Below are positions 2,511 through 24,900 of a DNA stretch of 64,000 nucleotides, in pieces. The stretch comes from Brachionus manjavacas (Eukaryota > Rotifera > Eurotatoria > Ploima > Brachionidae), in NCBI GenBank assembly GCA_019054805.1, contig JAHQIY010000014.1, positions 2,232,001-2,296,000 of the forward strand, read 5' to 3'. A model generated the notes under the pieces. The model made no database searches, was not told where the DNA came from, and saw only the letters and a list, made by a program, of their open reading frames with translations. A program made the position numbers and the translations under genes. Each line of letters begins with the position of its first letter. Position 1 is the first letter of the stretch.

Positions 2511-5500
2511 TCACTGTATCCAGCCTTCTAAAAAGTCTTCATGAACACTGGCTTCAAATTGTTTAAGATTGGTGGTTGTCAAAAGACTACTCTGCAATTG
2601 CTGACTGGTAATAATGTGCGTTTGATTGGAACTGTGCACAAATTGGTGGGCTGTCACTTGCTCGAAAAACGCTTTCAAATCGACTAGACTAGAAATCCGC
2701 TTGTATCGTAAAAGAGGTCCGTTCGGGCTTGACCTGAGATTGACACTTTTGCTATTCGGATACTTAACTTTTAGCAAATGATTTATTTTATTCAAATATG
2801 GAATAAATTGATCTCTGTGGTTAAAGTTGATCGTATCATCGGTATTTATAAACGACCATTTGTAGAGCTGAAATTGTGGCGTCAATGGACTAGGCAATGT
2901 TAAAATCAAGTCAATAAATTTACAAGCTGACAAGTAAATGTGTAATTTTGAATTATTCCAGTTCTGGGTGCTCATTTGGCTGGCAATGTGATCCAAATTG
3001 GAATATTTGGTTCCATTTCTAGATTGAGAAATTAATCAAAGGCTATTTTTAAGTGAAAAAAAGCATAGCTTTTAAGAATTAAGTAAGGCTTTGATTGTTA
3101 ACTAAAAAAAGCAAGTGAATCTAAAAACAATTCTAAAATAACCTCTTTAGTTTGATGCTGAAACAAAAAAATGCATAAATAGCATTCGAATAACTAATAC
3201 CCAAATGGTAGGTAGAAAAAATTTGCTTACTTCAACTCTTGTTCTTCACTTAGGTCCTGTTCAATTTGAAGAAGTATTAATACTAATTCGGTGATTATAG
3301 TTGGCCACAGAGCGGTCAAGTGTTTGCTTGAAATTCTGAGAAATAGTATGCGAAAAAGAAGGAACAATGTTGAATATAAGTTGGCTGATTGCACCAATTT
3401 TAGGACATGAGCGATGCATTCTGAATAATTTATTAGAAAAAAAAATTTACAAATAAGAAAAAAAAACACCTTGAATTTCCGGCATGTTCCTTTGGTATTG
3501 ATCTTTTTCACTGGAGAAAATAACAAAAGCCAGTCGCTTGAGCAACTGAGCTTTTTGCTCCGATTCTTGTTCTTTGCTGGTGAATAAACCCCCCGATTGT
3601 TGGTAGGTGACCCGGGCTAAATATTAATTAAATTTGTCTGATACAAAAAAATTTAATTCAAACAAAATTACTTAGAACATCTTTGAACATCGCGCGGTCA
3701 TTGCTTATAAGATTATCTATAATAATCTTAGAATATTCTAGTGTGGCCGAGTCCACATGAAAATACATGTTGTCAAAAAGCATTTCATAGACTTCTTTTT
3801 TCCAAGTTTTTCTAGTGTACGGGTAAACAGTCAGAGTCATCAAAAGATGCGATGCTGCCTTAAAGTTATTCTTATTAGCCACTCTTAAATTTAAAAAAAT
3901 CATTACAGAAATTCAAAAATACTAATAATGACACATACAAATGGGTTTTCAAGTAAGGCCAAAGATTTGACATTAAGCTGATCAAAATTGGTATTACCAA
4001 GCGATCTTTTTCGTCACTTTTGTAAACTATGTCCAGTGTTTTGGCCAAAAACTAAATTTTTTTTTATTTAATTTTAATTTAACAATAGTTAAAATACTTC
4101 AGCAAGAATGTTTAGCGCTTGAAGACTGTAGGCCAAGTTATTGTTCGAATCATTTAAATCACCGATTAAAGCATTCATTGGGTCCATTGAATTCAAGTTG
4201 GATCCATGGTCAGAAAGATTTGATGTCATTTCTTAAACAAAACAAATTATTTATCCACATTTTATTTTATTGCTTTTAAAAAAGGCAAACGAGGTTAGTT
4301 GCTGTGAAAAAAACAACAAAAAATGAATTAATGAGCAAGTTTTTTTATTTAGCAGAATTACTTAGTTTATATTTTTTAAATATTTTTCTACGCTTAGATT
4401 TAACTTTGATGGCTAAATTTTTAAAATTTGACATTCAGATTTATCAATATTAACATAGTGAATTTCTAAGATTGTTAATTGCTGTTTTAATGTTTGTTAA
4501 ATATGACACTAAATATTAAAATAGTTAATATCAAATATTTTTTTAATTAAGTAATATTTTTCTTATCTATCAATTTTGATTTTTATTATTTGAATAAAAT
4601 TTTTATTAAATTAATTTTTAATTAAAGTTTGATTTGTTACTCTGCCTTCTGGATCGAAGAAAAAAATAAATAAAAGAAATTTTGAATAATATTAAACCAA
4701 ACTAGTTTAATTAACATTTTTTACAATAATTATTTAGTATGATTTCATAATATTTTCGAATATTTCAAATGCATTAAAAAACTAATGATTAACTAATTAA
4801 CTAATTAAAAAAAAATTCACTATGCTTTTAATTTCAGCTAGGAACTTACCATTTTCTAAGTCGGAAAAATTTGACCGAGGATTTGAAACAGAAGAATTTG
4901 ATCCAATGCCATTAGTAGTACCAGAAGCAATAGATTTTGAATTCAAATTTGATGATTCACTTAAATTTGCCGAGTTTGGCTGTAACAATGAGGAATTAGT
5001 CGAATTGGACGGGCCGTTTGTATTGGCTTGGTTCAATTGTGAAGATGAGCTCTGCGATTTAAGCTCGGGCTGGGGATTTAGCTTGACAGCAAAGTTCTTT
5101 CGCAGCCAAGTTGTTTGCTGCAAAGAGGAGGCCACAATGCTGTTACACAACTCGAATAGTTTATGGGTGGCTTCTTGGATATCTTTGGAGTACTTTTTGT
5201 CATCGACCAGAATTGAAAAATTGTTCACTGAGTCATGCAATATTCGAAATAATTGAAAATAACAAGCTGGCGCGAAATTTGAAGTGGTCGAGTTGGTAAG
5301 TACTTCTTTAAAAAAGTTACATAGACATGCTGCCAAATCGTTTTGACTCAGTTGTTCCGTCTGAAAATGGTTATATTTTGACGGAGTCTTTATTGATCCC
5401 AGATAATTGTCTAAATATGTGTGCAAAAACTGCAGCAACCAAATGTTCAATGGACTCTTTTTCTTAAATTAAAAAAAAATTCATTTTAGAAGAAAATTTA

Positions 5501-8500
5501 ATAATTGTTTTTTTTGTCATTATTTTTTGAAAAATTTGAAAAATTAATAGATTAATTAATTTATTTTATTTCAAGTTTAGTTTTAATTTAATTTAATTTA
5601 TTTTTAATTCAACCTTAATTTTTTAATGTGAAGGAGCTATCTTTCGATAGATTTACTTTTAAATAAATATAAAACAATTCATTTTTTCTGAAATAAAATT
5701 GATAATAAAAATAATAAATTTAATTATGTTAGTTCACCTTTGGACACAGTCTGCATAAACGCTGCATTTTAAACACTAATTTAATTGCCAAGTTGAAGTT
5801 TTTGGTCAAACTTTGATGACCATTGGCAAAAATTTACTCAAAAAAATATTTTTAAGCATTTTTAATTAAGATATTAAACCCAGAGTTGTTTAAAAGTCAT
5901 AAAGTCAAACTCAAGTCAAAAGACTTGACTTCAAAATTTTTAAAAGTTTTTTGGGTCTAGCCCATTAGGTGAACAAGTGTTCACGGTTTAAGTGAACAAA
6001 TTGCTCACCTAATTATTTTTACCCTGATAGGTGAACATGAAAATACAAAAAATTTTTGCTAAAAAATTTAGGTGAACAATATTTAAAATAGGTGAAAATT
6101 TAGAAAAAAACTTATTTGAGTTTTCGAATAAAGAATTTTAGGTCTTGTGTCTTGTTAAATTAAAAACTTTTACTTATGACTCCGATTTTATGGCTTTTTA
6201 TTCAAAATTTTGAAAAAATTTTGGATTTCAAAAATAGAATATTTATATTAAAATTAAAATTTGCAACATCATTCTTACATATTTGTTTTCTAAAATTTGT
6301 TTTCCTATTTTAGTATAAATTGTGCAAGGAACAGTTAAAAATTGCCTTTTTGGCAAATTATAAAGATAGATGAACATTTTTGAATCTAAGTGAACAATTT
6401 TAAAAATAGGCAACAACTTTTGTTCACCTATCAGAGTACAAATAATTAGGTGAACAATTTGTTCACTTAAACCGTGAAGATGAATTGTTCACCTAATGAA
6501 CTAGACACAGTTTTTTTTAAAAGTTGGTGACTTGACTTTGAAAAGACTTCAGAATGACTTTTTTTCTGACTTTTGCGCAAGTCTGGTTATAACATACCCA
6601 AGTATTGTGGATAATTCAATATGTATTAAATTTTTGCACAAATTATCACAAATAAAATTTTTTTTGAAAATGTGCTTCTACAATAAAATTAAAATCAAAA
6701 TTTTCTTATTTTCTTCAATTTTATCTAGTGCACTTTGCAGGGATATTGCACGTGATTAGCAGACTTTCGGAATTAAAGCAACAATGCTTTTTACACTATG
6801 CTGTTTTTGCCGAGCTAATGGTTATCTAATAGAATAAAAGTTGTGCACTTATTTTTAACAAAAAAACATTAAAAATTAATTTTTTTTATTCAATTTACTC
6901 GTACAATAAAAAATTAAATGTTATCAATTTTGAGCTTTTTTTCTAGTAATTAATCAGATTTATTTTCTTTAAAAAAAAAAAATTTTTTAAGCACGTTTGG
7001 CGATTTAAATTTTTTGAATTCTAATCTAAATTTTTTTCAAATTAGCTTAAAATATTATTTTTTCTAAAAAAAAACCTGATTAATAATAACAATGAAATAA
7101 AGCCTCAGATTGAGATTAATCAGATTTCCTATTCTATTTTAATCAAATTTGTCAACAAATGCTGCCAAATAATTGACAAATAGAAAAATACCAATTTCTA
7201 AATTACCTTTTCTTTGGTATTTCCGGAACCAGACTGCTTCAAAATTTCTATAATATTCAATATAATAACAGAGAGAGGAAACGATTTAAGAGATCTAATT
7301 AGCTCGATGATAACTCGGTGTTCTTGTAGCAGCCTGGACTTTTTTCTCCTCTCACCCCACACAGTTCCAATGGCATGCATCAGCTGAACTTTGTTAAATT
7401 GCGCAATGGGATTTAGCAAGTCAGTGATGCACTGTTTAATAACAGCCGGATGTCCCAGGATCCACGAACAATGAATTTGATTGACAATTGTGCTATTCGA
7501 GGAGTCCAGCGATGCGGGAACATGGGAGTTTAGCAACAAATTGCACCTTTGCCACACTTGGACCATGCTGCTTAGAATCGAGGGAAACAAATGGATCAAA
7601 CTTTCTCTGGCGTGTATCTGATTCAGTTCGTTGTCTGTCTGAAATTGTCTGAACAGCTTTGACTGACTCTCGGGGTTCTCGGTGCCAAAATTGAAGACCA
7701 CAGAGTTCACATTTTGTCCGCTAATCAAACAATAGTTCAAAATAAATGCCAATTGCTTTATCATGTCAATTACAATGTCGGGTATGTTGATGGCCAAAGA
7801 CACCTGGGACATGTAGCTGAGAAGCGGTTGAATGTAGTTGCTCGAACTGGAGCCACTGGTGTTCATTCCGCCGTTCGTAATGTACATCAAATTGCGGCAC
7901 AATTGTTCTATGATGTAAGTGGTGATGGACTTCAGGCTGGAGCCAGTGGAGGCCAAAGTGTTGCGTATTAGCTTCAATATGTCCAAGTGATACTCAACAA
8001 GACCCATGTTCTTCAAATAGTACAAAACACTTGACACAAACATGGACTGATTGAAGATTGTCTGCGACGGAATGTACTTGGCAGTGTGAGGTAGTGAGCA
8101 GGCATTTTTTAAATCAAGCAAAAGCTCGTCCACTTCTGGGTCGGTGGTTTTGTGCGAGGCCGACGTCAACAGGCCTGTTTTGACAAATTTTAAATTGTAG
8201 TCGGCGAGCACTTTTTCCAGATCGATCAAACTTTGAAAGCAATTGAGCAGCTCGGCAACATAGCAGCGCTGGCTTTGCTTGGAGTTTTGTCTGAGGAGCA
8301 GATTGGCCAGGCCGTTTGGCGCCGGCTCCTCAGTACTACAGTGAAAAAGGTGCAAAAAAGTTTTCTGAATTTTCAACTTGTCCAAATAGTCGGCCACATG
8401 CCGGTGAATTTGTTTGCTCGAGAGTGACATCAACGAGCCCAGCTCCTTGAATATTTGGCCCATCACTTTCAAGCAGTAGATCTGAATGTTCCTGTTCTCT

Positions 8501-11500
8501 TCGAACTGGCTCAAGGCGTCGCTCTCGTCGGCCACTGCGGCCACTTCGGAGCTCGCCGACTGCACCGAGCTCGACTTGCACCACTTGCCGATTTGTTCGC
8601 CAGCGTTTTTGACCACAAACCTGCTGCACGGATAGTAGCTGCGAATGTAGAACAACAGCACCAGGCTCACCGCCTCCAGATACGTCATCGAGCTCACAGT
8701 CATGCTGGTCACATTTTTGCTCGACAAGTAGAAATTTTCTCCATGAACACTGCTCAAGTGTTTGACAATGAGATCAATTAACTTTTGGTTGTGCACCGAA
8801 TGCACCAGTTTCTGGTCGGACAGCGTGCTCTGGCTGACACAAAAGAGAAAGTCGCTTTTGCACTTGAGCAACAGCTGTTCGATGCATTTGAGAGCGAACA
8901 AAACTTTGACATGGTCGTAGCTGGTGTTCGAATACTTGGACACCACCAGAACACAATTGCCCTGCTGAATTGGCTGCAAATTGGCGCAGTTTGTGTACAC
9001 GAGCAAATGGGCATGGGCTGGCTCCACACCAGCCTCCAAATCGACGAGTAGATCTTTGCTTTTGAGCAGCAGCGACTGGCCTAGCTTTTCGCTGCTTTTC
9101 GCTCTGATCAGCGTGGACGATGACGACTTTTTCAGCTTTTCCTTTATTCTCAGCTTTCGGCCCTTCTTGCCAAAGCTGTTCCGGCTCTTTTTCTCTCTGC
9201 CATTCAACAAGGTCAAGTCTGTGCCGTGACTCTCATTGTGTTGGTTGAACTCGAGGTCGCTGGCGCCAAACGTTTCGTAGTCGTCGTCGTCGTCCAGCTC
9301 GTCTTCGTCGTCCACGTCTTCGTCGTCGTGGTCCTGCTCCTCTTCGTCAGACAAATACTCGGTCTCCATGCTGTTGCGATTCGACTGTCCAATGCTCTGA
9401 ATGGACTGATCGGCCGGATTGGCCGACAAGGACGTCAGCGACGGCGAAACGTTCGGCGAGGCCACTTGGCTGCCGTTTTTGCTGCTGCTGCTGCTCTGCT
9501 TAAGCTTCGCGGCCTTGTAGTTTTCCAAGAGGCGTCCATTCTTCGAGCTGTTCTCCTCCTCTGTTTCGTCATCGTCCAAAAACGGATTTATCCTCAGGCT
9601 GATGGCCGAGTTGAGCGACGACGCGTTCAATATCGACAATGGCAGCTCTATGTTGGCGTTTCTCAGCGGCCTGTTCGACTGGCTACTCTGTTCCAGCGAG
9701 GTCAGCACGAACATTTGCTGCTGCTGGTGCTGCTGGTGCTGCTGGTGGTGGTGGTGTTGTTGGCTTGATGGCTTGTCCGTGTTGTTCACATGGTACTTGA
9801 CGTTGCCGTCCTCGTTGCTGATCGCGTACACTTTGGACTCGTAGGTGCTGGAGTTGTCGGAGATTTGGTCGGCGAGGCCCGACTTGGCCGCGTCCGCGTT
9901 CAGCAGCTTGGGGACAAAGTGCTGCACGGAGATGCGAGCTGTGCTCGGGTGAACCAGCGACACTAGCAGCACGTCTATCAATCTGGCCAAGTCGTGGTAG
10001 TCGGTGATGGAGCTGGCGAGCCAGTCTTGAATGAGCATGTGCAAAGAGCTCGGCGTGTCCTCTCTGGCCAAGTGGTCGAACAAAATGAGCAGAAATTTGT
10101 CGAATGTTTTGGTCAATTTGCCGTACTTGATTGTGCTCACGCTGAGCTCTTCGATTTGGTCCAGGTCTTTGTTCGAGTTGAGCTCGCGCGACCAGTGCCA
10201 GAGGCGCGTGAACCGCCCGAACGAGTCCATTTTGGCCTTCAGATTGCAGGTGGTGTACAAATCGCTGGCGCTTGTGGCCATGCAGCTCGACGAGCACAAA
10301 AAATGCTTGATGACTATCTCTTCGCACAAGTTGCTGGGCAAAAGCTCGTGCAGCAAGCAGAAGAGGATCGAGGCTCGCTTGTCGGTGCAGTTGAGCATGG
10401 GCTCGAGTTGACTGGGCGCCGGGCACAAATGCGACCAGAGCATTTGGGCGGTCACGTGACCGAATTTCGAGCCAGTGAACACCAGGTCGACTTGGGCCGG
10501 AGAGAAAATGGTCTGCAGCAGGCACTTGGGGTCCGTGTGCGACCGCTTGTTAAAGTGACAATTTATGCTCTCGCTCAGGTGAATCAGCTCGATCAGAGTA
10601 TTCAAGCTGACCGACTGAAGCTCGAATAGCTGCTTGCGATTCGGCATTTGACTGCAGCAGGCTATCACGAACAGGTCTTTGAGCCACTCTTCGAAACTGT
10701 TCACCACACACCATTCCGTTGTGTCGTCGTCGCCGCTCCATTTACCACCACTTTGTTGTTCGCGTGGAAAAAAAAGCATCTTTATGAGAAGTTTGTTCAG
10801 AATTTGGTAGGATTGTAAATAGTGAAGGCTGCTTGACTTGAGCTTGATGTGGCACAAGTTGTTCATGTGCGAGTCGCACAGGTAGCCGTCGTCGTTGCTA
10901 AAAGAGCTTTTGCTGAACAGGCTCTTGAATGATTTGTCCACCTGGTCCAGTTGGTCCTCGTTGAACATGTGAGAATGGACAAAAGTGTGCGTGAGCTTTT
11001 TGAGAGATGATAGACATTGTTCGATCATGAGTAGTTTGTCATCGGTTTCTTGGTCAGTGCTTTGGACTGAAATGGTGATGGTGCACGGCTCGCTCAATGG
11101 CTCTGTGCATTCTACATTGGCGATTAGGTCATCCATGACTTGTTTAACTATTTCTTCGACCAGGTCCGGTTGGTTTTCTTCGACTGGAGGTTTTTTTGTG
11201 CTCAATTTGCGTGATCTAGCACTTGTGCTCAAGTTCGACTCTGGCACTGATATTTTTGGCACAACCTTGAACACAATTATTTTTTTTTGTTTAGTAAAAC
11301 TTGATAGATTTTATTTTAAATTTAGCGATTTAAAGAAAAAAACTTCAAAATTCAAAGAGCTAAACCCAGTTAGTTGACAGCTAGTTAGTTAGTAAATACA
11401 CAAAAGTAGTAATTATTATTATTATTAATATTAATTTTAATAATAAATTGAATTTTTTATTAATATTAATTTTTAATAATAATTTTAATTAATGGAAGGC

Positions 11501-14500
11501 AATGTGAATTTTAAGGTCATAAAAAAAAACCAAATCAAAATTGAAAAAACTAAAAATATTTTATCCAAAACCTAAAATTAATTCTGTTAATTAAATCAGT
11601 TGCTAAATTCAATTTATCGATTGATTCTACCTGCTGCAAATATTTTTTTAAATTTTTAAGTAAAATCAAAAAAAGAAGATTGATGCATTGATCAGATATT
11701 TGCACTGCGTAATATTGTTGAACAGTGTATGTTTTGAATGTAGTGCAACCCTTATTGACAACTTGATCGATTTTAGAAAGGCATTTGATAGTGTTCACAG
11801 AGAAATCTTTGGGCCGTGCTTAGATCGTACGGCATTCCTCAGAAAATCGTAAATATTATAAAGCTTTTTTACAATAAATTTGAGTGCAACTTGAGGATGG
11901 AACCTCTGAATACTTTGAAATTAAAACAGGGATTCGTCAGGGATGCATCCTTTCTCCATTGCTTTTCTTGACCCTCATCGATTATGCAATGAGGAAAACC
12001 ACTGAAAGACAGCGCACTGGCATTTACTGGGGCATGCCTCTGGGTCGAATGGAAAATCTCGAAGACCTTGATTTTGCGGATGATATTGTCTTAATATCAC
12101 ACATGGAGAGCCTCATGAGGGAAAAGACCGAGAAGCTGAGACGCAACACTGGATACGTTGGCCTAGAGATAAACACCGGAAAAACACAAGTTATTTGCAT
12201 AAACAAGAAACTAAATGCACCAATTTCTGTTGGAGACGATAATCTTATATGCGTTGGCAGCTTTACATATCTGGGAAGCGTGATTAGTAAAAATGGTGGC
12301 TCCGAAGAAGATATTCGCAACAGACCGACGAAGAATTTCTTTTTTTTTCTTTAGAACTGCTTTCTTCAAATTAAGGAATATGTGGGAATCGTCACCCCTT
12401 CGACTGAGGACCAAATTACATCTTTATAGTAGTCTTGTCAAATCTGTAGTGCCAAATGGATCTGATTGTTGGAGAATGATTGACAATGATCTTCAAAAGA
12501 TCGAAGTATTCCATTACAAGTGTCAACGAAAAATTTTGAGAATCTTCTAGAGTTGCACCATTTTGGACACCTCAAGGAAAGAGAAATGCTGGAAGACCAA
12601 AGGGAGAACAATTGAAAGAGATCTGAAAGAGATGAAACTCACATGGGGCAAGCAGAAATTGTCACTAAGGATAGGGTAGAATGGAGGGGACGTGTGGACG
12701 CCTTATGCTCCACTGGGAATAGAAGATAGAAGAAGAAGAAGAAAATAGAAGATTATTGATCTAATAATAGTAAAAATTTCAAAAATTTAAATCTACTCAA
12801 TATTCTGCAACATAATTTGTATTTTTTTGAATTTTTTCTACATACTGGAATTAGGTGATATATTAAATGTATCAGTTAACAGAATTTACAGAACTAATTT
12901 TTCGGTTTTTTAGTAAAAATTGTGTAGCTATTTCGTTTTTTCTCTAAAATTCACAATTCCTTAGTCGAAAGATGTTTTAAAGCGTGCATGGAATTTTGCC
13001 CAAACAAATTATACTTGATTTTCAATTTTGGATAATTGACGCGAATTAATCTTAAATTTGAATTGTTTTTTTTAAATTGTTTAAATTTTTCAGTACAGTT
13101 TTTAAAAATATGTCAATTAAAAAAATGAAATTAATTGAAATTTAAATGTCTGGTGTAATTCAGAAATAAATAAATGGAAAATTTTGGTCACAATTATCTG
13201 TAAGATAATGCTCGAAAATTACACAATCAGAAACTGACTAAATTTATCTGAAAACCATAAAAAAAATATAATAAAAATGATTCAAGAAATTTTGATGTCA
13301 TTTTAGTATTTTTTCTCCTATAGATTGATTCATTCTTTTGTGCTATTTTTCAAAAAAGGCAATAATCAATTTTGCTAAAGAGCTTTTATTTCTTAATTTT
13401 TAAATTATCAAAATTCAAATTTAAATCTAATAACTTATATAATTGAACCGATGTCAAAAAGGGTCAATGATGAATAAACAATTGGATTTTTTATTCAAGA
13501 CTGATAAATAGCTTTGTAATGAAGAGATCAATGCTGAATTTTGCAACATTTAAGCAATTATATTATTTTTCTAATAATATTAATCCAAATATAAATTTAA
13601 TATAGATTCAAATTTTATTTTTATAAAATAAAAAAAATTTTCAATCAAATATTCGAATAAAATTTGCTAGTAAAAGAATTAACTAAACATAAAAGAAGAA
13701 AAGCAAAAATTAAACTACAGATTTTGAACAGCATTCTAAAAAATTTAAAAGGCTCAAATAAGGCATAACGCCAGAGAAAATCGCTGACCCATAATAAAAA
13801 TGATGTTTCTTTAGAAATCATGATATCTTTTAAAATAATTTAAAAGTATTTTTTAAGAATTATTTTTGTTTAAAATCTAAATCAAGTTTATGGCTAAATT
13901 TTTTTTCCATAATTGAAGATTCATTGTTTTTGAGTGATGAGAAATAAGACTGTTGAAATTTTTTCTAAGATTTTGTAACTTTTTTTTAATTAGAAATAAA
14001 AATTTTGTAGCAAATTGAAATTAGTGATAAATTAAAATATAAATCTATTTTCAATGTGTTGGTTCAATAAATAGAAAAAAATCTATAAGAAATGTGATCA
14101 TCGACTGCATGTTTTTTTATACCATTTCAATCACATGTATCCTTAAGTACAGATAAAATGAAATTAAAAACGATTATTGTTTTTAAAGATTTTGGTTTCA
14201 GTCAATCCTCCGTATAACGAGACCCTATATAACGAGAAACCCTTTATAACGAGCAACTTGGCTAGAACATATTACGAGCTATAGAAAAAGATATAAAAAT
14301 TAATTCGATATAACGAGTTTCGATATAACGAGCTTATAATGAAAAACCGCTTAATGATTTTCTTAAGAATAAAAACTTTCTATAACGAGCTTGAACAAAA
14401 GAAATTTTTTCACACTTTTTATATAAAAAAAAATAAAAATAAAACAATTAACTTATCTTCATGAATAACTATAAAACACCAGAAAACATTTCCTATCTAA

Positions 14501-17301
14501 TTGTTTATAAAAAATGTCCAATCTTAATCAAAAAATATATCTTTGTTTGAAAAAAAGTTAAACTTTGACAAAAATGCTTATGTTTCAATCGACTCAAATT
14601 TTCCTGCACGCGGCTTATTATCAGATGTTGAGATCATCAGTTCAGTTAACAATACAGCACAAAATGATGACAGTGATTCTGATGTCGAAGAAATCGAAAA
14701 ACCTAAAAAACCTGTTATAAGCTCAAAAGAAGCTATCGATAAAATTAATGATTTAAAAGATTTTTTTTTGAATAAAAACCAAGATTTCTCAAAAATAGTT
14801 GATTTTTTGTTTAATATTGAAAATGCTGTGATTGAAAAATGTAATACCAAACAAACATCTATTAAAGATTTTGTAATAAAACAATAATTTTGTATTTTTT
14901 TTCCTTTTTTATTTATTTTTTTACCAATAAACATTTTGAAAAAAAAAATTTTTTTGCCCATCTTTTTCAATGCAATTTCGATATAACGAGCAACGAAATT
15001 TTCGCCCAACTTGCTCGTTATATCGAGGATTGACTGTAATTAATTATAAATTTAGAAATATTTCTAGTCTGAGAGCTATTTAATTTTTTTAAAAGTCTAG
15101 TCATATGATTTGTAACAACAAAGATATGCTGGATATTTTGAAATTAACAAGGAAAAAATTATCATTTTTTAATATTTTGATTACATAAAAAGTTGAGATA
15201 AGATTCTCATTGAAAACAATAATTGATCTAAAAAAATTGAAAAATATTTTCCTGTCTAATGATCTCATTGTAGTTTTTTGTTTCAAATCTTAAAGATCAA
15301 ACATTTTTTGTTTTTCTTAGAATAAAAGTGAGTGAACTTTCTAAAAGCAGTGATCAATGAGTGAAATCAAGCTATTGAGAAAATTAATAAATTTTAGGAA
15401 AAAATAAATTTCCACATACTTTGTTTAAAATTTTCAAGCACAAAAGAAATGATTTACTCAAGTCCTGATTTGTCATTTTATCACAATAATTGGTAATTGT
15501 CTGAATAATTCGCTTTAGCATCACTGGCAAATGTTCGGTTTGGATTTCATTGTACATATCCTTGAAAAAAATCGAAAATAAATTTCAATAAATTAAAATT
15601 TATTTTTTGAAAACCAAACAATTCACAATCAACAAATTACAATTTTAAACTTACTGAATTAGCCAAGAGTTCAAGAATGAATTCGTACAAATCGCATAGC
15701 TGAGCAGGATTGAGCGTAGAGCTGTGCACATTGTCTGATGTAATTGTGTGAGAAGAGGCCGATTCCAAGCGAGTGCTGCTGGTGAAATTCCTACAAATGG
15801 ACTCAAATTTACTTGCACAAAAGTCCCATATGAAAAAGATCTGAAACGAATGAAACAAGAAATTACAAGTGGCTTTTTTGAGCTCATTGGAGTCTTTTAA
15901 ATTCTGATTTTGCTGCTGTTGCTGCTGCACATGCTGAAAATTGCTTGTGCCCTTTTTAATACTTAGATAACTTTGCACATTTGAGCTAGCCGGTCCATTG
16001 TTTAAATTCAAAAATGAATATTCTTTATAAACATAAAACAACAAATCTAAGAGTATGTCATCAATAATGGCTTGTCCAATGTCTTGACGCTCGACCAGAT
16101 TGGAAATTATTTTTATTAATTTGAGGGTAGTTGCAGCGCTAGGGCTGATCTGGGGATTTTGGCCAGAGTGCGTTATGGTGCCTGCTTGGCTCGCCACCGC
16201 CGGTGTTTCGTCATTAAGCAAGTAGAGTATGGACGATGCTTCTTTTTTGTTCAGCAGCATCTTAATAGATTGAACTAGAATGCTTTTAGAATGCAGTTCA
16301 AAGTAATTTTTGTCATTTTTTTTCGACTCTTCACTGTTCGACCCGTTTCCCATTAGCCAAGAGTAGATTCTCCGGTTGAGTGTCATGTCGCGTCTGAGCA
16401 CCACATGGATGGCCACAGTAATCAATTGTATCTTGTCGCTTCGGGTCACGTTTTTTGTGTTCATTGGCAGACATGTGCAAATTAAGTCAAGTATGCTTCG
16501 TTGGACCAGAGAGTTGGCATCTTGGAGACAGCAGCAAATTGCGTTTGTCATTAGATCAATGGAATTGCCAATAAGATAAAGCTGGTCGTTGGCATTGACC
16601 GATCCGCTTCGTTTTTTCAGCTCGTAATTACTCAGCATAAACTGGATGGCTGGAAACCGGATGTAAGACTCGGAGATGATGGCCGACCAAATGCACGAGT
16701 GAAAATACTTGTCATCAGCTATGTAGTTGTTCATGTTGGTCACGTTAGCTGAGCTATCAGACTGAACCAGACAGATGTTTTTTATAAGGTTGAATGTTCG
16801 CTGATAAAAATCGGAGCCTTCTTCTAGACCGGGGAAAAGGGCGATGAGCAGCCCGGTGAGCCCGGGTCGCAGTGATTTTTTTAAAGGCAAAAAATAGGTC
16901 TCGTACAAGTTTAGCAGAACAGGCTTGACGCTAAGTGCCGCGTTGGCCAGTAACGGGAACAGTCCGCTCGAGTACAAGAACAAGTCTTTGGCCAAGTTTT
17001 CGGCGCCTATGTTCTGAAAGATGCATGTGTAGACCTCCAGCGCTTTTAGATGAACTCCGCTGGGCAATGCTGGATGCAAACACTGCGCCAGTCGTTTGCA
17101 GACATTCACTCTTTTCGGAATGTATTGGTATTTGGGCGATGAGTGAACCACTTTTTTTAGCTTGCCTAGAGACGATATAAGATCAGCCCATTCGGATGAG
17201 GACTCGAAATTTTTGAGACACTTTTCGATCGAGCTCACATAGGCCTTGTATTTGTTGTCCGTGTGGAGAAGAGTCAGCTCTTCCGGGCTAAGTAAACTCA
17301 T
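2511..17301 (-). CDS. DOP1: DOP1/Dopey family protein
   Basis: Homologue of DOP1/Dopey, a very large peripheral protein of the Golgi and endosomes. Family work in yeast and animals shows it binds Mon2 and acts in endosome-Golgi traffic and kinesin-linked organelle movement. Exons read by splice signals and frame are 17301-15655, 15560-15420, 11265-7207, (6814-6795 proposed), 5810-5738, 5462-4850, 4231-4098, 4051-3939, 3883-3672, 3616-3470, 3420-3231 and 3018-2511, giving about 2,618 aa, slightly longer than vertebrate DOP1 (about 2,300-2,500). The N-terminal exon holds the Dopey_N region (SSIEKCLKNFESSSEWADL, LPSGVHLKALEVY). Near the C-terminus KRLAFVIFSSEKDQYQ and LTALWPTIITELV are family hallmarks. 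Exon 3 has a disordered stretch with a His/Gln run and an acidic run (about 9,230-9,780). Coding exons are clearly GC-richer than the introns. Introns carry three transposons. All joins keep frame once the 20-nt exon is included. Confidence 0.95.
5811..7206 (-). other. DOP1 intron interval with a possible 20-nt microexon
   Basis: The large third exon ends in phase 0 at a GTAATT donor (7206-7205), but the next recognisable exon (5810-5738) starts in phase 2. The interval must therefore hold an exon of 3n+2 bases or an unusual junction. A 20-nt exon at 6814-6795, with acceptor CATTAG and donor GTAAAA, restores the frame and encodes LGKNSI plus two bases. The remainder is AT-rich and contains the TIR element at 5955-6506. 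Confidence 0.4.
5955..6506. mobile_element. MITE with about 90-bp TIRs built on AGGTGAACA
   Basis: The ends are GTCTAG and CTAGAC. About 90 bp at each end are reverse complements with few mismatches: CATTAGGTGAACAA, TCACGGTTTAAGTGAACAAA, TCACCTAATTATTT and TGATAGGTGAACA appear in the same order inward from both sides. AGGTGAACA or its complement occurs exactly six times. The TIRs contain smaller inverted repeats, so each arm can fold by itself. There is no coding frame. T-rich flanks hide any target-site duplication. The element lies in a DOP1 intron. Confidence 0.8.
11750..12745 (+). mobile_element. RTE-like LINE remnant in DOP1 intron 2
   Basis: The reading opens with LIDFRKAFDSVHREI, continues as FEIKTGIRQGCILSPLLF, and has the reverse-transcriptase catalytic motif FADDIVLIS at about 12,075-12,100. 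After that come VGLEINTGKTQ and FTYLGSVISKNGGSEEDI, then, after frame breaks, NGSDCWRMIDNDLQKIEVFH and GRTIERDLKEMKLTWG. The order is that of RTE-type non-LTR elements. It ends in a (GAA)n tail at about 12,727-12,745, also common in that group. At least three frameshifts or stops and the missing endonuclease make it dead. It is inserted opposite to DOP1. Confidence 0.85.
14199..15036 (+). mobile_element. Tigger/pogo-like DNA transposon, internally deleted
   Basis: Terminal inverted repeats begin CAGTCAATCCTCCGTATAAC on the left, and on the right the complement is CAGTCAATCCTCGATATAAC. TA follows the right end, as expected for the Tc1/mariner-pogo group; the left flank no longer reads TA. The motif TATAACGAG occurs at 14213, 14228, 14245, 14309, 14324, 14381 and 14982 on this strand and as its complement at 15014. 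The interior keeps only the transposase tail (next entry). It sits in DOP1 intron 2. Confidence 0.85.
14543..14887 (+). pseudogene. Remnant of pogo/Tigger transposase C-terminus
   Basis: A 114-codon frame with acidic stretches (NDDSDSDVEEIEKPKKP), then an SSKEAIDKINDLKDFF helix and the closing motif KQTSIKDFVIKQ. CENP-B/pogo/Tigger transposases end with a KQTSITDFF-like tail after such helices. The DNA-binding and DDE catalytic parts are missing, so it cannot be active. It lies inside matching terminal repeats, which supports the assignment. Confidence 0.75.
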
Positions 17302-18626
17302 TTGAGCACTGTTTTATTTGCTTTTTTTTCTCTTCTATTGATGTGACTAATACGTGAAAAAATTATTTTGGTTTATTTGCAAAGAATTTTTTTTTAAATT
17401 TTATTGAAATTTTGAGTTTTTTTTTTATAATTTAACAAAATAAAAATAATTTATTATAATCTAAATCGTTAAAATGCAACAACAAGACCCTAAAATGCAA
17501 GCAAAATAACTTAGCTCGCTTTGCTAAAAAAATAAAAAATGAGCTTATGTAGAAAGAGAATAATTTCAATTATTTTCAGTTGACAATTTGAGAACATTCG
17601 ATTTTGCTAATTAATCACGGAGATGGTGGTGCAAATTTTTGAAATTTGTGACGAAATTTAGCTCTTAGTTTTAATTAATTAAATAAGTACATTTGCTAGT
17701 GATGCACTCACTGCTTGTCTTGTCAAGAAAAAAGAGCCCAAGGCGCCAAATTTCAATGCATAAAATATATTATCAAACGTTACCTTAAGTTTTTGCACCA
17801 CAAAATTACAAATAAGCAAAAATTCATTTTTAATTGATTAATAATTGTTATTATTTTTTTAGGCCTAAAATTAAAAAAAAAATATTTATTAAATTTAATT
17901 TTATATCAAAATAAACAGGAGCTCTATAAACGAGCGCCTTAGTAACAAAAAAAAAATAAATAAAAATCTTGAATATTGTAATTAAGTCTATTATTAAACA
18001 AAATTTTATTAAATCAATAAAAATTCTCCTTCAATTGATCATTCTTCTTAAATAAAGTTTAATTTAAGTTAAAGAGGAGGTAAATTTGAAAAAAAAACGA
18101 AATTAAGCAGTCAAGAGTTTATAATTTAGAAGAAATAAATATTATCTTTTGGTTACATAACAACATAATTACATTTAAGTATTAAAAGCTCTCTTCCGAA
18201 TGAACAAACCGTAAGACTATTATCTGATATAATACTTTAAAAAAATAATGAAAATGATAGCTTTTCTCTTTTGTTTAGTTCTAAATTTTTTTCCTCAAAA
18301 AGAAATTTATTAAATAGAAAATTTAAATGCATGAAAATAACAACCAATTTAATGATTTCCTCTTCGGGGAACTAAAATTATTTACCAAGTGAATAAATTA
18401 TGAGCCAAGGGATAAATATCAAATTACATTATTCATATCAAGGATGATGATAAAAAAATTATTAATTAATCAAAGTTTTTATTTGTTTATTACTTAATAT
18501 TCATTGACAAATGAAGAAAGATTATGTAATTATCAGTAAATTTCGATGACTTTTTCATATAGAGAAAATAAGAGGAAATGGAATTGAGAACTGGTATGCA
18601 TTTTATTCTACGAAATTTGAATAAGT
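17302..18626. other. Intergenic, DOP1 5' side to receptor 3' end
   Basis: About 1.3 kb of AT-rich DNA. I see no coding frame, no ligand-binding-domain exon for the upstream receptor, and no transposon signature. A TTTATT (AATAAA on the minus strand) at 18602-18607 is a likely poly(A) signal for the receptor gene, 20 nt past its stop. The DOP1 promoter must lie near 17,302-17,700. Confidence 0.6.
18602..18607 (-). terminator. Poly(A) signal AATAAA of the nuclear receptor gene
   Basis: AATAAA on the minus strand, 20 nt past the stop codon. It implies a very short 3' UTR and supports the frame ending at 18627. Confidence 0.5.
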
Positions 18627-19616
18627 CTAAATAGAATTAAAATTAAAATTAGTTAGAGACATGGTATTTTGGCTGTAAATTGGAGCATTAAACGAATACA
18701 CATTGCTACTACCATAAGGATTAAAAAGAAACGAATTGCTTTGGCTTAGACTCAATTGATCTTCACTAGTTGTTGTATAAAAGCTATGCTGATTATTCAT
18801 AAGATAATTAATATTTGTTAGTGTTTGATTGTAAGGTGGATTTTGATAAAAGTATTGATCGGAATTTGTTGTGTCCGAATAGGTGACAGTTATTTGAGGA
18901 ACTGACTCTGTTGAACTGTAAGATGAGATTGATGATGCAGAATTATTGAATTGATTGTCTTGAAAGCTGTATCGAGTTTTTTTGGTGGGATTTTGCTTCG
19001 CTAAGCCTTGAATTGAATCAAATTGATCATCGATTTCTCTTTCTTTCTTTTTTTTAATTATTTCCTGCTTAACTTTATTTGTTGTTCGACCCAACTTTGA
19101 GTTGTCCAAGGACATGCCAGCTTCTAGACACTTTTTAAATCGACAATATCTACAACTTCTGTTAGTCAATTCAAGACAGTTCTGGTTTCCGTTTGATTTA
19201 CATTTAAGAGGATTGTCTGCGTGAACAAGGGCAGATCGACGAAAAAATCCTTTGCATGCCTCACAAGACATGACACCAAAATGGATTCCGGATGGCTGCT
19301 GGCTGCATACAGCACATTTTAGACTCTGAACTAGAGAGTTAATTTCGATTTGAGAGGCTTTTTTGCTCAAGTCCAGACCGACTTGAACACATTTCTTAAA
19401 CCGACAATACTGACAATTGGCCCTGGTCGATTTGGTAATGTTACACTGTTTATTGGCCACACACATGTACTTTCTTTTTTGTTCTTTTTTGCTTCGGATG
19501 AAAAATTTTTTACAAGCTTCGCATACCATAGCTCCATAGTACCAGTTACATGCCTCATCGCCACATACCTTGCACACCGAATCACTATCTTTGGTCGAAT
19601 AGCTTTGAGTTGACAT
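18627..19616 (-). CDS. Nuclear receptor with two DNA-binding domains (2DBD) and no LBD
   Basis: A 329-aa intronless protein with two complete nuclear-receptor zinc modules. DBD1 has Cys15, 18, 32, 35 and Cys52, 58, 68, 71; its P-box region is CEACKK. DBD2 has Cys101, 104, 118, 121 and Cys139, 147, 155, 158, with P-box CEACKG. Both are followed by the usual CRFKKC box. A basic KKKKER stretch near residue 190 may be a nuclear signal. Tandem DBDs with a CEACKK first P-box are known in the invertebrate 2DBD-NR group. Those proteins normally continue into a ligand-binding domain; here the last 130 residues are Ser/Asn/Tyr/Gln-rich, and no LBD helix motif is present in this frame or in the next 1.3 kb. 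It should bind DNA in the nucleus. Whether ligand-free function is real or the gene is truncated cannot be told from sequence. Confidence 0.92.
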   Translation of the reverse strand: MSTQSYSTKDSDSVCKVCGDEACNWYYGAMVCEACKKFFIRSKKEQKRKYMCVANKQCNITKSTRANCQYCRFKKCVQVGLDLSKKASQIEINSLVQSLKCAVCSQQPSGIHFGVMSCEACKGFFRRSALVHADNPLKCKSNGNQNCLELTNRSCRYCRFKKCLEAGMSLDNSKLGRTTNKVKQEIIKKKKEREIDDQFDSIQGLAKQNPTKKTRYSFQDNQFNNSASSISSYSSTESVPQITVTYSDTTNSDQYFYQNPPYNQTLTNINYLMNNQHSFYTTTSEDQLSLSQSNSFLFNPYGSSNVYSFNAPIYSQNTMSLTNFNFNSI

Positions 19617-20021
19617 TTTAAAATTTTTTGATTAATCCAATTGAGCCAGCTTATCATCATTTATATCCTGGTAAATTAGCTAAATTAAATAAATAGCCCG
19701 TCAAAAGATAAATAAGTTAAATTACTTAAATTAAAAAGTTAAAACTTTAACGATCTAATTTAACCACCAAGTTTGTTCACAATTGTCTTGTTCTGATTAA
19801 AAGACACTTTTGATCTCAATTTGTCATTGAGTTAAGTTTGCCACAATCGAATCCGGCAAAAGAACCACCACCAACTAAAAAAAATTTCAAATAATACTTT
19901 ACATTTGTTCAACTTAATTATTCGAACAAAAATAATTTTAAAATTAAAAAATAATATTTTTTTTGAATTCAAAATTTGCAAGATATATATATTTTTTGGG
20001 TATTATTTGGTATTTTTTCAA
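19617..20021. promoter_or_regulatory. Shared divergent promoter interval
   Basis: Only 405 bp separate the start codons of the receptor (minus) and the zinc-ribbon gene (plus), so both promoters must lie here unless distant 5' exons exist. It is AT-rich. I see no convincing TATA box or initiator, so individual sites are not called. Confidence 0.4.
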
Positions 20022-21810
20022 ATGGTTCATAATTGTCCGTTTTGTGAGGCTAAAGTAGAAGCAGACTTCAAATTTTGTGGTGTTTGTGGCAAGCTTTTGA
20101 AAAAAACATGCCAAAGATGTAATATAAAATTTGAGCCAACATTCAACTTCTGCGGTCAGTGTGGAAACGCACTCGAAAAGTCTTCGTTTGATCCAAATTT
20201 TAGATCCCACACAAAAAAAACCCAAGTAATTTAAAGTAATTTTTTTTTGTTGAGTTATTTTTTAATTCTAAATAAAGGATTTAACTGATAAATCAGGAAT
20301 TAAAGTGAAGGTAAGCATTTTGCACGGCCTCGACATGAACACCATAAAACAGGAGCAAGGTGGAGGTTCAAGGAGAATTTATCTCAATCAAACAGATGAT
20401 TTTAATGGAGTTAAAAAAAAAATCACCGAGCTCTATTTTCCGAGTGAGTTTTCATTAAGCTAAATTGTCCAACTAATAATTAGGTATTATTTCTAAGGAA
20501 ATAGCTACACATGCTTGGGTCGGGTCAGAGAATACCAGATCAATATGCTTGACTTTAAAAAACAGCTTTTGAATTACAAAAATTTTAAAAACCTTTCATC
20601 GTATGTGGACACGCATGGTTTAACTCCTCAAGTGAAGCCGATATTTTTTCTTCATCTTTTTAGAAATGAAAACCATCTCAATACGGGTTCTTTAGTGCCC
20701 ATAGCTAGCACCGAAAAAAATCCAAAAGCTGATCATTTAGTGAAAAAAACAATAAAAAAAGAAGATTTGAAGGAAACCAGCAACCAAAGCTCGACAGTAG
20801 CGCTGAGTTGTTCTAAAAACCTTGGTAATGAAAAAAAATTGGTCGAATCCTCTTCATCTTCCTCGTCTGAATCAGAGAACGAGGTCGATAAAAATAACCT
20901 ATCAACTCAAAATGTAGGCTACAAATCTCTTAGACAAATAAATAAATTTCTTAATCCGTCGGAAAATAATCTTGCCAAAAGGCGCATTCATAAAAGAGAT
21001 AGTTCATCCTCGTCAGTCTCTTCATCTTCATCTACTGCGAGCTTTAAAAAAGCGAAAAAATTGGATAAAAAATTAAATAGGAGAATACAGAGCTTAAAAA
21101 AGGAGACTGATCCAGACCACAATACTAAACCACTTTTGCCAACTCCGAATAAAACCCCGAGTTCTAAAGCTAACATATCAGACCAATTTAAAAATAATCA
21201 TAATTCAGCTAGTAATAAAAATCTTGTTATTTTATTAAAAGAAAAAACAAGCCACGAATGTGAAGAAATTGTTATTGATGATGGCGATCAGCAAAAATGT
21301 GACCATTATGTGAGCCAAAAATTTAAAATAATTTTTTTAATAAAAATTTTTTTTTTAGAATAATGTGAAAAACTCCACCAGCTATTCACATAATCGTTAC
21401 TACAATAGCAAATACCATTCTTATTCATCAAATAAAGATAATTATAACTATTCAAGTATGTTTTCTATTGTATTTTCTTCAAAATAAATAAACAAATGAC
21501 CATGGTCAAGTGTAGAGAGACATAATTTTCAATTAATTTTTTCTTTTTCTAATTGATCTTGGTTCTTTAAATTAAACCCCAAGAATAATGTTTTTTAATA
21601 AAGCTAATTACAACCAAAATAGATACTCCTACCGAAATAATTCAGCCTACAGGGGATACAATAATAATCATAACTACTATTATAAGAATAACCAGTATTC
21701 GATTAGTAAATATGGTAATTATGGTAAGCTCGTTGAGTTTATAAATTTAAATATTAAACTTTTTAACATTAGACAACTACAACGAAGACAAATCAAATCC
21801 GTATTCTTAA
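20022..21810 (+). CDS. Unrecognised protein with two N-terminal zinc ribbons
   Basis: Six exons (20022-20225, 20278-20443, 20498-21309, 21359-21455, 21604-21723, 21773-21810) join in frame to 478 aa. Residues 1-50 form two tandem zinc ribbons (CPFCEAKVEADFKFCGVCG and CQRCNIKFEPTFNFCGQCG), eight cysteines spaced CxxC. Residues about 75-180 make a compact mixed segment (VSILHGLDMN, GGGSRRIYLN, GVKKKITELYFP, then YVDTHGL and IFFLHLF) that looks like a folded domain I cannot name. It is followed by a Ser/Lys-rich disordered linker with several Ser runs. The last 85 residues are dominated by Asn, Tyr, Ser and Arg (YNNNHNYYYKNN), the make-up of RNA-binding low-complexity tails. Function is unknown. 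The next gene starts 128 bp downstream on the same strand. Confidence 0.8.
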
Positions 21811-21938: not shown

Positions 21939-24900
21939 ATGGATAATCCAGAAATAAAGGCACTTCTAAAATCGGCCAAGGAGGCCATTAAGAACAAAGA
22001 TGCCAAAGAAGCACTCAAACTTTGCAAAGTAATCTGGCATAAATTAAAATTTTATTTCTTAAAATAAAAATTCAAATTGAACAGTCAGTAATTGACAGAG
22101 ATAAAGAAAACTATTTAGGTTGGGTGATGACTGGCGCTGCTGCGAATGAGCTCAACAACAAAGATCAGTCATTAGCAGCTTATCAGAGAGCTATTCAGAT
22201 TTCGTCAAATCTAGCGCCAGCTTGGCAAGGTCTTGCTCAACTTTATGAAAAAACTAATTCCCAATCTGAACTAATAAGTGTGTACAGTGAACTGAGAAAA
22301 TTCTTTTGCAAGTAAAATTTTTACCATGGTTGACAATTACATCAAATTAAAAGCATTATATTAAAGTGATGCAGTTAAATTTTTTGAAATATCTAATAAG
22401 TATGCCAATTGTTTGTTATCTCAGGCAAAGACTAAGGAAGCTATTGCTGTTCTCTATGAGCTTATTAAGAATCAAAACACTAATAAAAACTATGGACCTT
22501 TGATCGAAAATTTGGCTCGTCTTCTTGCACTCTCTGATGAACAAGTATTTGAAAAAAGTATTCTAAACTCAATTACTAGTAAACTGCTTTCTAGACAAGT
22601 GACGTCTATTTTGATGTCATTGGCATAATTGACAGGAATTCGGAAATAAAAATTGAAAATGAATATTTGGAAAAGATAAATGAAAACGCTTTGAAATCCA
22701 TGATAAAAGTAAAAAAGTCTTAAATTAAAAATTTATTAATATAAAATGATATGTATTAGGCTCATGAATCATGGAAAACTATTCTGGATCATTTGTTTGA
22801 TTTGCTTGAAAAATATTGTGCCCATAACGAGTTTGGATTGAATACGCTGTTTGAAATTTACACCGAAGCGTTGATTAGTGGCATTGAAATTGAGCAAAAA
22901 TATTTGATTAAAATTAAGAATTTACTCGAAGATGAAACAAGCGAATTGGACTCTTTACGGCAATACCGGATGCTTATCAATGCAGTAAATATGCTGTCCA
23001 TTCTTGACCAGAATAATATTGGTGAATTCAAAAAAATTCTTGATCAAGGTAAACAAACAATTTTGAAACAGATTTTTTACTTTTTAATAATTTAAATTTT
23101 AAGTTAAAGAACAAATGATTAAGTCAAATAAATTGCTTTTACTGTTTTTGGAAAATAATTATTATTTTTTTACATGCAATCATGAGCAAACCATCAAGAC
23201 AGCTCAAGAGGGTGAATCTTTTTTTTTTACTTTAATTTCTAAGAAAAAATGCGAAACTAAACATTTGAAAACGTTTATTCTCACTCAAGTTGTCTGAGAA
23301 TAACTAAAATAATGTATACTCAAGATAACTTTGACTTTTGTTATTTATTTGTTTTCTGTACCGAGCAAAAGCTCCTTCAGATTAAAAAAAAAAAAAATAT
23401 CAAAATAAAATAAAGTTAAATAAGATAGAATAAAAATTTAAAAAAATAAAATGTAATAAAATGGTTTAAAATTCACTATTCTGTTTCCATAAATTTTTAA
23501 GTTTAGATCATCACTCTCTTTTTTATATCTAGAAAAGACTACTGAACACGACTTTTCTACTGATATCTTCATTTTCCATTTAATAAGCCATTGTTCTAGT
23601 TCGTTGGTGTATTTATTTATCTTATTTTCAAGGTTCCCTTTTTTGTTATAAATGAAGAATGTAACTAGATCATCTGCGAAAATCAGAGAGTATTCATTAT
23701 TTGTTTTGTTTCTTTTGGGGATGTCATTAATATATATACTAAATAAAAGGGGACTAATTACTGAGCCTTGAGGAACACCTGCAGTTATTTGATATTCTTC
23801 GCTTAGGTGATCATTCACATTTACCTTGAATCTCCTAGAATCTAAAAAGGACCTAATCCAGTTAGTCAAGTAATGAGGTGGATTCAATTTAATCAATTTA
23901 AAAAGTAAACCTTCATGCCAAACCCTATCAAAGGCTTTAGAAATATCAAAAAAAAGGCCACAAACTCTTTTTTTTCTATTAAATGATTCCAAAATTTTTT
24001 TGATTAAAAAGAAAATATTATCTGATGTTCGCCGGTGTTTTCTAAATCCAGACTGCTCCTGGATAAGGAGTGAATTTTGTTCCATAAAATTGTATAATCT
24101 TGAGTATACTATTCTTTCCAGTAACTTTCCTAGACAACTCGTTATGCTAATTAGTCTATAATTTAAAGGGTTTTGTACAGTAGAGGCCTTTTTTTGAATC
24201 ATAGTAATGTTCGAAGTTTTCCACGCTTTCGGGACTTTACCTTCTCTAAGAGATAAATTAAAAAGTTCTAAGATTTCAATTAATGAATTTCTTGGTAAAT
24301 TTTTTAGCATCAAATTATGAGTTTGGTCAGGTCCTGATGCCGCTTCATTTTTAGATCTTTTTACAGCAATAATTAATTCATCTAAGCAAATTAGATCATT
24401 AAAATTAGACTGATCATAATTTCTTAAGAATTCAGAGTTAGAATAAAGTATTTCGAAATCTTTATCAAGATCTATTAACATAGTTAAACTTTAACTATGT
24501 CAAAGTAGTATGTTAGTTAATTCAATTTTCATTTTTTAAAGAATTTTATATAAGCCCTAACAATTGTTGATAGTTTTTAAATGTGTTCACTATTTATTAC
24601 ATGTCACTAAAATTGGATTTTTTAATTTTTTTTAAAACAGTTCTCAATTTTGAATAACATGTAACTCAATTTGGATGATTACGTTAATTCTATGAGAAAT
24701 TTAAAAAAATCATTTTAAAAATTCATTTGTCGTATCTGACTAAGATTTAAGCTAATGCTCATTATTATTAAATAAAAAGTTAATTTTAAAACATTTAGTA
24801 AAAATTCTGTCTTTTTTGTTCTTTTAATTTTAATTTTTTTTATGTCCAATATATTCAATTAAGGAAAAAGCGTATAACGCAAAATATTCACAAATTGTTT

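Follow-up and report, generated by a model that had tools for sequence, protein, structure and literature searches.

A two-DBD nuclear receptor gene of Brachionus manjavacas in which no ligand-binding domain was found

The Knirps group and odr-7 are examples of nuclear receptors that have a DNA-binding domain (DBD) only. The existence of such receptors, in which the ligand-binding domain (LBD) is absent, is noted in the introductions of PMC10497141 and PMC8363021. The abstract of the 2023 review of the family, PMC10497141, gives 2DBD nuclear receptors (2DBD-NRs) two DBDs and a single LBD, a passage of its text describes the LBD signature as conserved, and the legend to its Fig. 1 names four layouts, which are the typical one, DBD-only, LBD-only, and the pair of DBDs with an LBD. 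The window analysed here, which is the whole stretch of 64,000 nucleotides, raises the question of whether a receptor with two DBDs and no LBD, a layout absent from those four, is encoded at 18627-19616. No receptor of this kind is described in the portions used here of the literature on 2DBD, rotifer and DBD-only receptors (including PMC10821554, PMC8222990, PMC4388693, PMC6844482 and PMC4070562).

The features of the window are as follows (C14 is the contig that carries it).

7198..17298 (at least), minus strand: DOP1/DOPEY, the next recognised same-strand gene downstream (Dopey_N, TPR_DOP1)
18602..18607, minus strand: AATAAA, possible poly(A) signal (direct reading; frequent in the AT-rich flank)
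18627..19616, minus strand: coding sequence of the two-DBD nuclear receptor without a detected LBD, single exon, 329 aa
18630..19082, minus strand: tail of 151 aa without a detectable LBD, basic, then N/S/T/Q/Y-rich
19083..19109, minus strand: C-terminal extension, LDNSKLGRT, in which KLGRT resembles a G-box; aligns with CKIGRQS / SRIGRQS in the paralogues
19110..19319, minus strand: DBD2, P-box CEACKG (zf-C4, 77.2 bits; C14:2251110-2251319)
19374..19577, minus strand: DBD1, P-box CEACKK, both zinc modules standard (zf-C4, 82.9 bits; C14:2251374-2251577)
20020-20232 and 20497-21363, plus strand: divergent neighbour, with paired-cysteine zinc-ribbon-like motifs and then a Ser/Lys-rich frame
23438-24490, minus strand: frame for a reverse transcriptase (RVT_1, E 1.3e-39), upstream of the receptor gene by about 4 kb

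Pfam identifies the downstream gene by Dopey_N (E 4.3e-105 in 15637-17298) and TPR_DOP1 (E 2e-40 in 7198-11307), and its position therefore bounds where an LBD exon could lie. The reverse-transcriptase frame is probably LINE-like, and the Ser/Lys-rich frame of the divergent neighbour matches no Pfam family over the cut-off.

The reading frame and its DNA-binding domains

The preliminary description of this locus, made from the sequence alone, took the gene to be intronless and in one frame, and translation bears this out: on the minus strand, 329 codons run from ATG to TAG uninterrupted by stops, and none of 500 dinucleotide-shuffled versions of the open reading frame had a frame of at least 300 aa on the same strand. 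A DNA-level search of the genome (a 114-Mb assembly of 61 contigs) gave a single copy of the gene. Pattern matches for an orthologue numbered 12 in viral_contigs and 47 in genome_contigs, of which none was confirmed. The AATAAA that had been pointed out 20 nt beyond the stop is indeed present, but it is weak evidence of a poly(A) signal, since AATAAA also occurs in 392 of 1265 windows of 60 nt from the AT-rich 3' flank.

Pfam finds zf-C4 twice in the 329-aa protein, with a whole-protein E-value of 4.2e-43, and direct reading of the translation agrees with the P-boxes first given, CEACKK in DBD1 and CEACKG in DBD2. Two full zinc modules had also been described, which is nearly right. All 16 zinc-binding cysteines are kept, but the spacing in the second module of DBD2 is shifted: the first module of this domain is standard, while the second reads C-X7-C-X7-C-X2-C instead of the standard C-X5-C-X9-C-X2-C, which displaces the sixth cysteine by two residues and lengthens the D-box. 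Because of this odd zinc spacing, DBD2 may not bind DNA in the usual way. The linker between the DBDs is 19 aa long if the count starts at the GL that follows DBD1 and stops at the first cysteine of DBD2.

Two-DBD paralogues in the same genome

From the zf-C4 matches and the loci fetched around them, four 2DBD genes were found, namely the gene on C14 described above, a gene on C15, and a tandem pair, C4a and C4b. All three of the others have an LBD, which Pfam confirms in C15 (E 1.6e-7) and C4b (E 1.8e-9). C4a was considered as a second LBD-less 2DBD gene and rejected: the first stretch downstream of its DBDs contains no LBD, and the LBD part was then found further on, starting about 3.6 kb past DBD2 and behind an intron.

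The exons of the paralogues were read by hand, and the DBD part was checked again by script. Three introns are common to C4a, C4b and C15: one in the linker (phase 1), one after CEGCK of DBD2 (phase 0), and one in the C-terminal extension (phase 1). Both C4 genes have one further intron in DBD1. The C14 gene has none of these introns. In searches of a three-sequence database, its DBD1-linker-DBD2 region is 44.8% identical to that of C4b over 181 aa (E 4e-46) and 43.8% identical to that of C15 over 178 aa (E 7e-40). Pairwise, its DBD1 is closest to the DBD1s of C4a, C4b and C15 (52-55% identity); its DBD2 is closest to those of C4a (53%) and C4b (50%), whereas the C15 DBD2 (45%) is no closer than some DBD1s.

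A DBD tree was built from 21 rows. Eight are the DBD1s and DBD2s of the four 2DBD genes, and the remaining 13 are DBDs, complete and free of interruptions, that a pattern picked out in the fetched loci; the tree thus leaves out the intron-split DBDs of single-DBD genes and receptors outside these loci. One branch parts all four DBD1s from the DBD2s (81/80 support, 98% of 200 bootstrap trees), although no branch of the tree is starred or strongly supported and 13 of the 18 inner branches stay open. Inside the DBD1 group the tree also places L018, a receptor outside the 2DBD genes that sits on a long branch. The DBD2 of the C14 gene lies apart from the other DBD2s, with a branch length of 4.12 changes per column, and is drawn with L016 and L040 (49/93). 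On these comparisons, DBD1 looks conserved and DBD2 fast-changing, and the spacing C-X7-C-X7-C-X2-C together with the long DBD2 branch is, for the sequences compared, newly noted here.

As a separate observation, the DBD2s of the two C4 tandem genes (L023 and L042, C4:5071.8-5083.9 kb) are 87% identical, and in the stretch that contains the C-terminal extension, the hinge and the start of the LBD their DNA does not differ at all for the first 746 bases. Either gene conversion or a 3' duplication of recent date is suggested by this identity.

Search for a ligand-binding domain

The protein had been described as ending, after DBD2, in about 165 low-complexity residues. The composition and the lack of an LBD were upheld, whereas the length is 151 aa when counted after SKLGRT; a figure of 165 counts from nearer DBD2. 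N, Q, S, T and Y together make up 56% of the tail, compared with 48% and 45% of the hinges of C4b and C15, and 32% and 28% of their LBDs. Since its composition is near that of the hinges and unlike that of the LBDs, the tail is probably hinge-like and disordered. The idea that it is a recognisable remnant of a paralogue hinge or LBD was dropped for want of a significant alignment: shuffled sequences aligned as well as the tail to the hinges in 242/1000 (C4b) and 914/1000 (C15) cases, and to the LBDs in 93/1000 (C4b) and 853/1000 (C15) cases. In control alignments, no shuffle out of 1000 was as good as the match of the C15 LBD to the C4b LBD, and 560 of 1000 were as good as that of the C4b hinge to the C15 hinge; because the paralogue hinges match each other no better than this, the hinge alignments are uninformative.

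Pfam gives no Hormone_recep match in the whole protein at E-values up to 1 and no LBD in the tail alone at E-values up to 10, where the sole match is PhoQ_Sensor (E 0.018, below its cut-off). In a tblastn search of the window, no LBD match falls in 17300-19616, and the only matches to LBD regions are at 8782 (E 0.37) and 25314 (E 0.76). Other frames and the 3' flank were also considered as places for an LBD and rejected: the best score of a two-sequence LBD HMM is 4.5 bits, equalled by 24 of 300 shuffles. Thus, neither Pfam, tblastn nor the two-sequence HMM finds an LBD in the C-terminal region or its flanks. The earlier statement that the next 1.3 kb downstream has no LBD-like frame is sustained as well, the longest minus-strand open reading frame in 17302-18626 being 59 aa; the GC content of this flank, which extends to DOP1, is 22.7%. 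Three paralogues with an LBD and none found here agree with the initial reading of the gene as a relative of the 2DBD receptors without an LBD in its genomic sequence.

A whole-genome Pfam scan for LBDs at E 0.001 missed the LBDs of C15 and the C4 genes, and so is no test for the 2DBD family; against solved receptor LBDs, the C15 LBD shows weak similarity, at best E 0.018 to an RXR-like protein. The LBDs of C15 and C4b were used as queries against the whole genome at E-values up to 1, and gave no match on C14. As a positive control, the C4b query recovered the C15 gene (1.2e-7) and the C15 query recovered C4b and C4a (1.3e-7 and 1.4e-7), mainly via one piece of about 60 aa that the C15 and C4b LBDs share, so a more divergent LBD could escape.

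These searches bear on the alternative that an LBD is encoded after all, in an unseen downstream or nested exon that is spliced on, with the tail as an alternative end. Long gaps do occur among 2DBD genes, as the 3.6 kb between DBD2 and the LBD part of C4a illustrates. However, same-strand DOP1 begins only 1.3 kb downstream of the C14 gene, the paralogue queries find nothing on C14, and the one Pfam LBD on that contig (1358450-1359105) is about 0.9 Mb off and adjoins its own DBD (1358108). We consider such an exon very improbable.

The gene might also be a pseudogene, that is, a recently truncated and decaying 2DBD receptor whose LBD was removed by a stop or a deletion. It is the only LBD-less one among the four 2DBD genes found, and the long branch and shifted cysteine spacing of DBD2 are what relaxed constraint would give. 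Nevertheless, 329 codons have remained without a stop in a gene whose DBDs share no more than 45-55% identity with their counterparts, which makes a fresh truncation unlikely. In addition, the full set of zinc cysteines is retained, frame 0 of the tail stays open in none of 2000 shuffles, and the 1.3-kb flank contains no decayed LBD clearly above chance by the HMM comparison given above. Decay of this kind is an unlikely account of the gene.

Family placement and proposed function

The sections of PMC10497141 used here report the P-box pair CEACKK-CEACKG only from the rotifer groups NR7A3 (bdelloids) and NR7A5 (monogononts); other 2DBD-NRs pair CEACKK in DBD1 with CEGCKG in DBD2. They also give an inter-DBD spacing of 17-22 aa, a G-box of the form RXGRQ(P/S), and standard zinc modules in both DBDs of most members, with very few exceptions. 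The C14 gene has two tandem C4 DBDs, the P-box pair and the 19-aa spacing of this family (NR7A); it differs in the zinc modules, which are not standard in both DBDs, in its G-box (KLGRTT), and in the single LBD with Ti signature and AF-2, which was not found in it. Because no LBD was found, the gene is, by its predicted protein, an LBD-less relative of NR7A and not a canonical member. As for the G-box, C4b reads RIGRQS and C15 KIGRQS, which is off the RXGRQ(P/S) rule at residue one; the rule is not absolute.

According to the same source, rotifer NRA1 has H as the fifth residue past the G-box, and NRA4 has another residue there. The C4 genes have H and C15 has Q, and by this rule we read the C4 pair as NRA1 and C15 as NRA4. 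The tally of NRA1, NRA4 and NRA5 here would then be 2+1+1, near the counts listed in Table 3 of PMC10497141 for B. calyciflorus (2+2+1) and B. plicatilis (1+1+1). Table 6 of that paper lists NR7A5 accessions, those of Brachionus being RNA34403 and CAF0986382. The C14 gene is like Brachionus NR7A5 (2DBD-NRA5) in its two DBDs, CEACKK-CEACKG pair, short linker and single copy per genome, and unlike it, as that group is described, in the missing LBD, the G-box KLGRTT and the altered DBD2 zinc spacing. It is homologous to the NRA1/NRA4 genes (the C4 pair and C15) across DBD1, linker, DBD2 and C-terminal extension, whereas those have CEGCKG in DBD2, the three common introns and an LBD. With DBD-only receptors (Knirps group, odr-7; NR0A) it shares a DNA-binding domain and no LBD, but there is one DBD in those and two here, which sets it outside that class.

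Since the P-box pair is reported only from NR7A3 and NR7A5, and since the paralogues have an LBD, we take this, with a probability of about 0.7, to be a genuine 2DBD-family gene whose LBD and introns were lost; its likeliest identity is an NR7A5-type paralogue of monogononts. An overlapping possibility, which we hold at somewhat less than even chances and which does not exclude the reading just given, is that the whole rotifer NR7A5 group, and perhaps bdelloid NR7A3, is LBD-less and that the gene is an ordinary member. The shared P-box pair fits this, and so does the inclusion rule in PMC10497141, by which two DBDs, partial DBDs or high similarity were each enough for a sequence to be kept, and which would have let LBD-less proteins in; the single LBD and conserved signature that this paper attributes to 2DBD-NRs speak against it.

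If the gene is an NR7A5-type paralogue without an LBD, its product would have DBD1 joined to DBD2 by the 19-aa linker and would end, past the C-terminal extension, in a tail that resembles a hinge and is probably disordered. Such a protein, descended from a 2DBD receptor, could bind DNA independently of any ligand: the two linked DBDs of a single chain would engage two half-sites, so that dimerisation driven by an LBD would not be needed. For comparison, schistosome Sm2DBD-alpha is reported to homodimerise, and its LBDs form a homodimer in vitro, in the part of PMC1810520 that deals with this receptor. The main action of the rotifer protein would be to occupy, or compete for, sites of the LBD-bearing 2DBD receptors, and activating or repressing contacts, if any, would be made via the N/S/Q/Y-rich tail. 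More speculatively, such genes may form a class of LBD-less double-DBD receptors that is conserved in rotifers, a fifth nuclear-receptor architecture, whose members bind two half-sites constitutively as a single chain, antagonise or replace the LBD-bearing 2DBD paralogues, and have a rewired DBD2 dimerisation loop. A receptor with two DBDs and no LBD would mean that a double DBD is able to persist in the absence of ligand control and LBD dimerisation, and would be a natural case in which to ask whether linking two DBDs suffices for target choice.

Because all three introns common to the paralogues are absent, the gene perhaps arose via a processed mRNA. However, several other receptor DBDs in the same genome also lie within long uninterrupted frames, which makes the absence of introns weaker evidence of retroposition.

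Three similar single-DBD receptors were seen elsewhere in the genome: L038 at 3357-4256 (C29, about 190.4-191.3 kb), L040 near 2694 (C11:58.7 kb), and C11:51357-51560. In L038 the DBD (residues 211-275) is near the C-terminal end of the 299-residue frame, in which Pfam finds no LBD; the copy at 51 kb on C11 carries one in-frame TGA. These receptors are possibly another LBD-less group. Two further receptors, L018 (1360-2436) and L037 (2932-4803), are in single long frames. For L018, Pfam gives a DBD and no LBD despite about 240 residues after the DBD. Divergent LBDs may be widespread among the receptors of this genome.
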